Assembly: GCA_938036315.1 (NCBI GenBank) | Contig: CALHPK010000006.1 | Location: 134,999 to 198,998, forward strand | Reading direction: 5' to 3' | From: an uncultured bacterium | GTDB lineage: Bacteria > Calescibacteriota > Calescibacteriia > Calescibacteriales > Calescibacteriaceae | Length of the DNA stretch: 64,000 nt | Part shown: positions 1,236 through 6,042 of the stretch, piece by piece | Numbering within the stretch: position 1 is the first letter of the stretch | Layout of the letters: each line of letters begins with the position of its first letter | Notes under the pieces: generated by a model | What the model saw: only the letters and a program-made list of their open reading frames with translations | What the model was told of the DNA's origin: nothing | Database searches by the model: none | Position numbers and translations under genes: made by a program

Positions 1236-1543
1236 GTTGGGTGAGAAATTGACCATTATAGATTAAGATCTTTTGTAGGGAAGGTGCGTAGTCTATAGGT
1301 ATTCCGTAGGCTATATCTTTGAAACACCTGAATTGTAGCCATTGCGGGCTAAAGTGTAACCTATCTTAGCCTTGAATCGTTCAACATGCTCTCTTCTAAA
1401 AAATTGTAAGTTCGGCGGAGGGGAATTCGCTGGTTTTACCTCTTTGAAGGGTGCATTTGAGGGGTACATCCTTTAGATTACCAACTTTGTTTGGCTTGCT
1501 GATAGGGAGAGTTTTGAAGAGAAGAATTAATTTCTCACCCGGT
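1236..1543. ncRNA. Candidate structured non-coding RNA, ~308 nt, family not recognised
   Basis: This gene-free stretch folds on paper into a closed multi-branched structure. The ends pair through a perfect 12-bp stem (1239-1250 with 1529-1540), extended by three wobble pairs to 1236/1543. Inside are: 1282-1286 with 1325-1329 enclosing TATAG/CTATA; GGCTAA 1347-1352 with TTAGCC 1366-1371; and TCTCTTC 1390-1396 with GAAGAGA 1516-1522. That last stem encloses three hairpins: 1406-1409/1436-1439 continued by 1414-1419/1426-1431 with loop GGGGAA; 1447-1453/1467-1473; and 1481-1484/1491-1494. I looked for tmRNA, RNase P, SRP, 6S and cobalamin-riboswitch hallmarks on both strands and found none. Strand is undecided. 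It could be an independent RNA or the leader of the 1725 gene. Confidence 0.45.
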
Positions 1544-3120: not shown

Positions 3121-6042
3121 ATGGGGCAATTACTTATAAAAAGATTGTCAATAGTGGTGACGGCGGTAATTTTTCTGAGCTATGTTCTAATACAATCTGC
3201 GTGTACAAGAACAGGTAGTAAAAAAGTATCGGGTGAGGATCAGCTATCCGGAGGAATTCAAAAAATAAAGATAGAAGGGAAAGTTCAGGCGGAATCTGAT
3301 TTCTTCTCGGCTTCGCAGGAGGGTATAGTAACTACTAGATTAGTAACAGGAAGAATCATAACTGCGAGGGCTCCTCGGCTTTCAGCTAAGGAAGAGGAAG
3401 TAAAGCCGGTTAGGGAAGCGATTGTTGTGTATGAGGAGGGAGGAGTATCTGCAACTTCTGATGATAATGGGAATTTTTCTCTACAGGTAACTATTTCAAG
3501 GAAGTGTCCATGTGAGGTTACAATTTCAGCCGGAGCAGTCCGGAAGGATGGAAAAAGCTATCGTGTAAGACAGAATATCACAATATCAGACGAGGACATC
3601 AAGGCTGGTAGGAAGAATGTCGGAGCTATTACTGTTCTATCATCAGGAGGAATAATAGGTAAAGTAAGACTTGTGGGGGCTGATTATCATCAAGGTGTGT
3701 ATGCCTATATCCCCGGAACTGGAATGATTAGTATAACAGACGAGGAGGGTAATTTCGTCATAGGAGATATACCACCAGGGCAATATAAACTCGCAATGGA
3801 AAAAATAGGATACTCCTCTAAAATGACAGAGAATGTAGTGGTGGAAGAGGGGAAGATAACTTATGTTGGAGATTTTGAACTGCAAAAGGTGGAGTCTTCA
3901 GATGATTTTCTCAAGGGAGTGGTTAGGGAGAAGGTATCCGGAAGGGTTGTAATTGGCGCAATAATAGTCAGTTCTTCTGGCAAAGTTGCTATGTCAGATG
4001 TGCAAGGGATATTTCAAATAGGGAGCACTAAAGAAAAGCTTACCGTCTACAAAGAGGGATACAAACTAAAAGAGGTTTTCCCATCCGAGCTAACCACCAG
4101 GCAAGTTGAGATCATTCTTGAGATTGAAGATCTGAGAACTGGAGTAATAAAGGGTAAAGTGTACAATTGGAGTACATCAAAGCCTATCCCTGGGGCAACA
4201 GTGATCTCCCTACCTAAAGGAGATGCGACAGTGACTTTAAATGATGGAAGTTTTTCTCTTCAAGGAGTTGAGCCAGGAAGTTATAATCTTATATTCATCA
4301 AGAGCGATTTCCAAGTAGGTGTAGAACCGATCAGGATGCCAAATGGAGGAGTAATAGATATAGGAATAATAGGGCTTGTCCCGGATTGTCAGATGGCAAA
4401 GTTTTATGCGGATAAAGATGGAGATGGTTTTGGAGATCCTAATGAATATACCGAAGATTGTTATCCACCTTATGGGTATGTTGGGAATAAGAATGATTGT
4501 GATGATACAAGGGTTGAAATTCATCCCGGGGCAGTTGAAATTTGTAATGGGAAAGATGATAACTGTAATGGTCTTGTTGATGAGGGTGTGCAGGTAAAGT
4601 TCTACAGAGATCAAGATAATGATGGGTATGGCACATCGTTGACCTTGCCAGGAAGTGTAACTCAGGCTTGTGAGCAACCCCCAGGTTATGTAGGGAACAA
4701 TCTTGATTGCGATGATTCTGATCCTAATATAAACCCTGGTGTATTGGAAGAATGTAATGGGAAAGACGACAACTGCAACGGACATATAGACGAAGGTGTA
4801 CAGGTAAGATTCTACAGAGATCAAGATAATGATGGGTATGGAGATCCTGCTTCCAAGATGCAGGCGTGTACAGTACCTGTGGGCTATGTTGAAAACAATC
4901 TTGATTGCGATGATTCTGATCCTAATATAAACCCTGGCGTAGTTGAGGTAGTTGATGGACGAGATGAAAATTGCGATGGTATCCAAGATAATCTAACTTT
5001 CAGGATAGGGAATATAGCTGAAGTTTCGCCAGTACATTATATTGATTTGGCGATGGATCAAAGTGAGAGGCTTTATGTGTCAATGTCTTATACTGCATAT
5101 GGGAGCTCAAGATGGTTAGATTACTTTCGAAAAGAAGTTTTGGGAGAGTGGGAGGGAAAGGGTGCTCGATACCTCGGTGCAGGTAGCCAACTTTTGTATA
5201 GTTCCTCTATAGCAGTGAAACCAGATGGAAGTGAAGTTTACTTTTCTTACCATAGTTTTTCAGATGGCTCTTGTGGGGGTGGTTTGTGTATAAATAAATA
5301 TACATCGGGTGGTTGGTACGGTGACGGTAAAGGAGTAATTGTTGCGCCAAGCACGAGAAATAATGCGATAGCTTATGCTAATGGTTTTACTCATATAGTT
5401 TATGCAGATGAAACGGTGGTACACATATATGCAGACTCATCGCATCCAACTTTCTCAGAGCGAGCTTCAATTGTCTTTTCAGGTCAGGTTACAGATGTAG
5501 AGGTTTCTGCAAGTCCTGATGGAGCAACTGTGCATATGGTTGCTATTGTGATTTTAGCAGATGGGGAAAAATATCCATTTTATGCAAGGAATGCAATTCC
5601 AGGTGTTTTTTCGTCGTGGGTTACATCTCGAATAACTTCTTATACTTATGATGTTGAAAGTATTTCCGTTGCTGTTTCAGCTAATGGAGTAACTCATATA
5701 TGTTTTACTGGAAAAAATACTCCACATCTTTTTTACACGCAATCTACCGGGGGTAGCTTTTCAATTCCCAACAGTATTGACGGAGAGGGACCAATGTCAT
5801 CCTGTTCAATTACACTTGATAATGTTGGTTCCCCTCACGTAGCCTATTACAGTAAATCATTCAAAGATTTGAGATATGCTGTTTTGTATGAGGGAAGTTG
5901 GAAGAAATACAGAGTAACATATGTAGAATATGTTCCGTTGAATCACGGAGTCGGGATAGTGATAGATAGTAAAAAGATTCCGTATATAGCTTTTATTGGT
6001 TATAATCTACCAAGATACGCAACGCTAACAAGGAAGAATTAG
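3121..6042 (+). CDS. Large surface lipoprotein: carboxypeptidase-regulatory-like repeats, three MopE metal-binding repeats, BNR-like C-terminus
   Basis: 973 residues. The N-terminus has a basic start, a hydrophobic core and a Cys in SAC near residue 28, giving a probable lipoprotein signal (position -3 is Gln, not ideal). Residues 75-420 hold about four carboxypeptidase regulatory-like beta-sandwich units, recognised by phrases such as ATSDDNGNFSLQV, ISITDEEGNFVIGDIPPGQY and VTLNDGSFSLQGVEPGSYNL. Residues 422-626 hold three tandem MopE/MopuCID repeats (PF11617 type), each with a DxDxDG calcium-like loop, then DCDD, NPG and CNGKDDNCNG. Such repeats bind copper or calcium in characterised relatives. 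The remaining 350 residues resemble a BNR/beta-propeller without a named match. AGGAGAT precedes the ATG. It shares the MopE motif with the lipoprotein at 50734-52632, so the genome has a family of these. Function beyond outer-surface binding is unknown. Confidence 0.8.
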   Translation: MGQLLIKRLSIVVTAVIFLSYVLIQSACTRTGSKKVSGEDQLSGGIQKIKIEGKVQAESDFFSASQEGIVTTRLVTGRIITARAPRLSAKEEEVKPVREAIVVYEEGGVSATSDDNGNFSLQVTISRKCPCEVTISAGAVRKDGKSYRVRQNITISDEDIKAGRKNVGAITVLSSGGIIGKVRLVGADYHQGVYAYIPGTGMISITDEEGNFVIGDIPPGQYKLAMEKIGYSSKMTENVVVEEGKITYVGDFELQKVESSDDFLKGVVREKVSGRVVIGAIIVSSSGKVAMSDVQGIFQIGSTKEKLTVYKEGYKLKEVFPSELTTRQVEIILEIEDLRTGVIKGKVYNWSTSKPIPGATVISLPKGDATVTLNDGSFSLQGVEPGSYNLIFIKSDFQVGVEPIRMPNGGVIDIGIIGLVPDCQMAKFYADKDGDGFGDPNEYTEDCYPPYGYVGNKNDCDDTRVEIHPGAVEICNGKDDNCNGLVDEGVQVKFYRDQDNDGYGTSLTLPGSVTQACEQPPGYVGNNLDCDDSDPNINPGVLEECNGKDDNCNGHIDEGVQVRFYRDQDNDGYGDPASKMQACTVPVGYVENNLDCDDSDPNINPGVVEVVDGRDENCDGIQDNLTFRIGNIAEVSPVHYIDLAMDQSERLYVSMSYTAYGSSRWLDYFRKEVLGEWEGKGARYLGAGSQLLYSSSIAVKPDGSEVYFSYHSFSDGSCGGGLCINKYTSGGWYGDGKGVIVAPSTRNNAIAYANGFTHIVYADETVVHIYADSSHPTFSERASIVFSGQVTDVEVSASPDGATVHMVAIVILADGEKYPFYARNAIPGVFSSWVTSRITSYTYDVESISVAVSANGVTHICFTGKNTPHLFYTQSTGGSFSIPNSIDGEGPMSSCSITLDNVGSPHVAYYSKSFKDLRYAVLYEGSWKKYRVTYVEYVPLNHGVGIVIDSKKIPYIAFIGYNLPRYATLTRKN

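Follow-up and report, generated by a model that had tools for sequence, protein, structure and literature searches.

The evidence does not allow a folded segment at positions 1237 to 1543 (+ strand) of the window, the 64,000-nucleotide stretch of bacterial DNA analysed here, to be put forward as a new RNA, nor does it decide whether the first-pass annotation was right to interpret it as one. That annotation saw correctly what was in the letters, but could neither count the space in which it had searched nor look for relatives. The inverted repeat that closes the segment, the statistics of its fold, the order of the genes around it and its lack of homologues were all directly observed. The reading that we prefer, and to which we give an even chance, is that the segment is ordinary noncoding DNA, specific to its lineage, which owes its fold mainly to a single inverted repeat. 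We infer that no functional transcript is made from it.

The window corresponds to bases 134999-198998 of contig C6 in a 1.87-Mb draft genome (G000) with 31 contigs besides this one. The segment lies in a spacer (1119 to 1664) bounded on the left by a ZIP-type transporter gene on the - strand (384-1118), and on the right by the in-frame open part of an Rsm22-like gene. The gene-free stretch noted earlier proved to be a real gap of 606 bases between these two genes. Beginning at 1119, the gap contains no credible open reading frame up to about 1664 (up to 1724 when the Rsm22-like frame is counted from its first listed start), and the small open reading frames within the spacer had zero family matches. 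The Rsm22-type identity proposed for the neighbour was borne out by a match to PF09243 at an E value of 7e-14, on the + strand of the right flank. The conserved N-terminus of the Rsm22-like protein, LIFNFPEEVENIIKS (like FHFPEEV in the relatives), is encoded between 1664 and 1725, ahead of the first TTG start and in the same frame; it is preceded by an in-frame stop, after which no ATG, GTG or TTG occurs ahead of the N-terminus. As judged from the sequence, the gene appears either to begin at a non-standard start codon or to contain a one-base frameshift.

The closing stem was said to be perfect over 12 bp, and bases 1239-1250 (GGGTGAGAAATT) are indeed fully complementary to bases 1529-1540 (AATTTCTCACCC). 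When G.U pairs at its outer end are counted, the stem extends to 15 pairs (1237-1251 with 1528-1542), with a mean pair probability of 0.93. The accompanying estimate, that such a match should occur well under once by chance, is valid for this one spacer (p 0.028 by shuffling), but not beyond it: 1.5 such repeats are expected per 64-kb window, and one is present. On the scale of the genome, which was read almost completely, three 12-bp inverted repeats of this span were found in the 251 spacers of at least 200 bases; two shuffled sets gave expectations of 2.2 and 1.6. When stems are required to have at least five G/C pairs, as the present one has, shuffling yields an average of 0.095 per genome, and 8% of the shuffled genomes contain any. 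The closing stem is uncommon but, given how large a space was searched, calls for no special explanation. One long closing stem combined with a good z-score is near what luck yields across the spacers of a whole genome.

The shuffle test named in the first-pass annotation came out in favor of the segment on the + strand, where the MFE was -97 kcal/mol, the z-score ranged from -3.5 to -4.2 in three runs, and no shuffled sequence was as stable. The fold of the - strand was weaker (z about -2.0 to -2.5). Among 142 evenly spaced windows of 307 nt, the lowest z was -3.2, and several other spacers of the same genome gave z below -3 in fixed windows. When the closing stem was left out, the interior at 1251-1526 had a z of -1.1, with 22 of 150 shuffles as good, and a second cut at 1255-1530 had a z of -1.2; across both cuts, 10 to 15% of the shuffles were equally stable. 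The excess stability of the segment thus comes mostly from the closing stem, and it is mainly through this stem that the + strand beats its dinucleotide shuffles. Two local regions, 1250-1300 (z -3.2) and 1370-1470 (z -3.9), scored well by themselves, both having been picked after the fold was seen.

Interior stems of the kind claimed earlier are present in the predicted fold, six or more helices of which have a pair probability of at least 0.8. All are on the + strand. From the 5' side, a hairpin at 1257 to 1297 is predicted to contain a 9-bp stem (1257-1265 with 1289-1297, P 0.94) and an inner 7-bp stem. It is followed by a hairpin at 1305 to 1346, formed by 1305-1308 with 1343-1346 (P 0.81) and 1309-1315 with 1334-1340 (P 0.97), and by one at 1347 to 1371 with a 6-bp stem (1347-1352 with 1366-1371, P 0.81). 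A long hairpin, at 1380 to 1461, is built of 5, 4, 6, 5 and 8 bp in succession, with P values of 0.78-0.94. The 3' part of the segment (1465 to 1527) is ill-defined, with pair probabilities of 0.31-0.61 and a z of about +0.3.

The segment also stands out from its surroundings in composition. The GC content is 0.41 between the stem ends (window mean, 0.376) and drops to about 0.15-0.20 immediately beyond both of them. Of the signs of a discrete element that remain, this abrupt change is the best. By best 300-nt GC, the segment ranks 20th among the 130 spacers of at least 300 bases, and many of those ranked higher hold tRNAs. Three spacers without a tRNA reach 0.46-0.48 over 300 nt, namely G000:C11:12592-13089, C2:59930-60273 and C7:22515-23365, and these are more promising sites than the segment for unknown RNAs or overlooked genes.

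Compared with the known structured RNAs of the same genome, the segment is dissimilar in both composition and interior stability. The GC content is 0.57 in RNase P RNA, 0.56 in tmRNA, 0.59 in 5S RNA and 0.59-0.69 in the tRNAs, and G.U pairs make up 12% of the pairs in the known structured RNAs as opposed to 21% in the segment. At 70 C, RNase P RNA and tmRNA have energies of about -0.19 kcal/mol per base, and the segment has one of -0.095. The host is probably heat-loving, to judge from the GC content of its stable RNAs and from the HRbin series, which comes from hot-spring samples and to which a genome of the same family (Bacterium HR19, isolate HRbin19) belongs.

No relative of the segment was found. 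The DNA search revealed no second copy in its own genome, and across that genome, 59 others, phages and plasmids the segment matched only itself. A single-sequence covariance model likewise recovered only the segment, both in 30 genomes at E values up to 10 and in 386 genomes at E values up to 0.1; models of this kind, together with the search pre-filter, may miss fast-evolving RNAs. Four genomes of the same family contained no homologue by either blastn or the covariance model, the corresponding loci of these relatives included. As a control, the RNase P RNA and tmRNA of this genome matched their family copies by blastn at E values of 1e-30 to 1e-9, so a conserved RNA under ordinary constraint would have shown. 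Conservation in relatives, by which structured RNAs are generally recognized, was therefore lacking in all four same-family genomes and about 380 others.

Gene order points the same way. The Rsm22-like gene is present in all four same-family genomes (46-53% identity), where a tRNA-Gly(CCC) gene lies directly ahead of it and the segment is absent; the ZIP gene is found apart from the Rsm22-like gene, among other neighbours. In the relatives, no equivalent spacer was seen around either the Rsm22-like or the ZIP gene. A scan of genome contigs with the Rsm22 protein matched two of these same-family genomes and two remote ones, and the segment was missing from both same-family loci. Because the relatives have tRNA-Gly(CCC) at this place and nothing like the segment, its adjacency to Rsm22 means little. 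Just before the Rsm22-like gene, in the position at which the four relatives carry tRNA-Gly(CCC), the + strand contains a separate, short GC-rich patch (0.61; 1619 to 1657) with a T-arm-like hairpin, GCTGGG-TTCTACT-CCCGGC, and a weak likeness to that tRNA. A relic of tRNA-Gly at 1617-1657 was considered, but the T-arm-like match (14 bases, p 0.004-0.05) was judged too short; such a relic is not claimed here, the tRNA-Gly(CCC) gene of this genome being elsewhere.

That the hallmarks of the known large bacterial RNAs are missing, as the first-pass annotation had stated, agrees with Rfam, which was silent on both strands at gathering as well as permissive thresholds. RNase P RNA (RF00010) resembles the segment in its similar length, its long terminal stem joining the ends and its multi-branched form, but the segment has no Rfam match at E values up to 10; the covariance model of RNase P RNA did not match, and the true gene is at G000:C3:104698-105084. 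Similarly, tmRNA (RF00023) shares with the segment a similar length and paired ends, whereas neither a tRNA-like end nor a tag reading frame was detected in the segment by ARAGORN or Rfam, and the true gene is at G000:C7:7443-7809. Another parallel is provided by GC-IGR screens, in which orphan GC-rich intergenic candidates are judged by homology search and covariation (e.g. PMC6429828). The segment resembles those candidates in being a long, relatively GC-rich spacer with a predicted multi-stem fold in an AT-rich genome, and differs from them in having no relative at all.

Transcription signals were also sought. No sigma-70-like promoter was found on the + strand before the segment, and no terminator at its end, the sole terminator-like site being internal. 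A TATAAG box is located at 1231-1236, just before the stem. Such a box occurs at -25 to -7 in only 5 of the 45 tRNA and tmRNA genes of this genome, so TATAAG does not mark out RNA genes in this organism and is uninformative.

If the segment is ordinary noncoding DNA, its inverted repeat of about 15 pairs may have arisen by chance, or may remain from an inserted or decayed sequence that can no longer be recognized. The repeat, whose arms flank a patch of moderately high GC, would carry most of the fold. The spacer itself would be new, a product of the ZIP gene and the Rsm22-like gene becoming neighbours in this genus. Several observations speak against this reading, namely the + strand z-score, the asymmetry between the strands, the GC edge, the rarity of G/C-rich stems of this kind, and the GC rank of the segment.

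The strongest rival explanation, which we regard as possible though distinctly less probable, is a structured RNA restricted to this genus and read from the + strand, either free, with a length of about 305 nt, or as part of the Rsm22-like mRNA, in which it would form a long 5' leader. In the predicted structure, the closing stem would join the ends, and four or five hairpins would be set on a junction, an arrangement known from other bacterial RNAs of closed, multi-branched form. The - strand folds less well than the + strand, the GC patch is bounded by the stem ends, the helices of high pair probability are numerous, the orientation is that of the Rsm22-like gene, and the 15-pair stem includes G.U pairs, which DNA repeats would not favor. 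Against such an RNA stand the absence of a homologue in the family or elsewhere, a GC and G.U content unlike that of the structured RNAs of the genome, an interior no better than shuffles, and a + strand with neither a sigma-70-like promoter nor a terminator at the end, its TATAAG box carrying no information. The narrower proposal, a large structured RNA that belongs to no known class, occurs in a single genus and is transcribed with or ahead of the Rsm22-like gene, is a little more doubtful again. Such an RNA might conceivably regulate the neighbouring gene or help assemble its product. If it were a true RNA, the segment would represent a new large class from a poorly known lineage.

Improbable, in our estimation, is a relic of a small MITE-like insert with 12-bp terminal inverted repeats and an interior unrelated to known mobile elements. 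MITEs are likewise about 300 bp long with short terminal inverted repeats, and an insertion would account for exact 12-bp inverted ends around a compositionally distinct segment, as well as for a gene order at the spacer that is private to this genome. However, the segment is single-copy, no target-site duplication is visible, and its ends do not recur as a pair, one lone exact 12-mer in L092 being all that was found; nor was there a match in phage or plasmid records, or such paired ends in viral contigs. Being present once, with ends unpaired elsewhere, the segment is not an active small transposon.

Considerably less probable than an insertion relic is a fragment of a decayed protein gene on the - strand. 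The GC content of the segment, being above the window mean, is coding-like, and one - strand frame gave a weak Pfam match (PGM_PMM_I, E 0.1) running through stops. However, a search of six frames should by chance alone give one match of E 0.1. The PGM/PMM proteins of the genome and its relatives do not align there, so a decayed phosphomannomutase gene was rejected, the match having failed against the genome's own phosphomannomutases. NCBIfam and PHROGs yielded no matches, and the best tblastx matches in a relative were antisense to real genes and at about the level of shuffles. No significant translated match to a known family, the usual mark of a pseudogene, was obtained in any of the six frames.

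Least probable of all, and scarcely credible, is a strongly diverged SRP or 6S RNA missed by Rfam: the bacterial small SRP RNA and 6S RNA were found in none of the five family genomes, but cmscan of 1100-1750 against all Rfam families, at E values up to 10 and with laxer filters, matched neither SRP nor 6S RNA. In addition, RNase P RNA and tmRNA were found elsewhere, the relatives would need the same RNA yet lack this segment, and, with Ffh and FtsY apparently absent, there would be no partner for an SRP RNA.

The apparent absence of SRP is an observation in its own right. The small SRP RNA (RF00169) had no match in any of the five family genomes, and a tblastn search of this genome with Ffh and FtsY of E. 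coli retrieved only one GTPase, at 23-27% identity; located at L089:16503-17081, it is probably FlhF. By the same method, 35 of 36 other housekeeping proteins were found, SecY, SecA and YidC included. A sample of 796 kb (about 42%) from one relative also contained no Ffh or FtsY, and it likewise misses many genes that must exist. On these searches, the genome seems to be without Ffh, FtsY and SRP RNA, the large form (RF01854) having been searched only in part. Either an SRP-less bacterial lineage or a gap in the draft genome is possible, and the matter deserves separate study.

Two other genes of the window had unusual features. The amino acid kinase domain is the last part of the aspartokinase at 3-230 (L039:17435-18229), a protein of only 264 aa in which there is no space for the usual regulatory ACT domains. 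Farther downstream, at 3121-6042, a large, secreted-looking protein is encoded that contains carboxypeptidase-regulatory-like domains and three Cu-binding MopE motifs.
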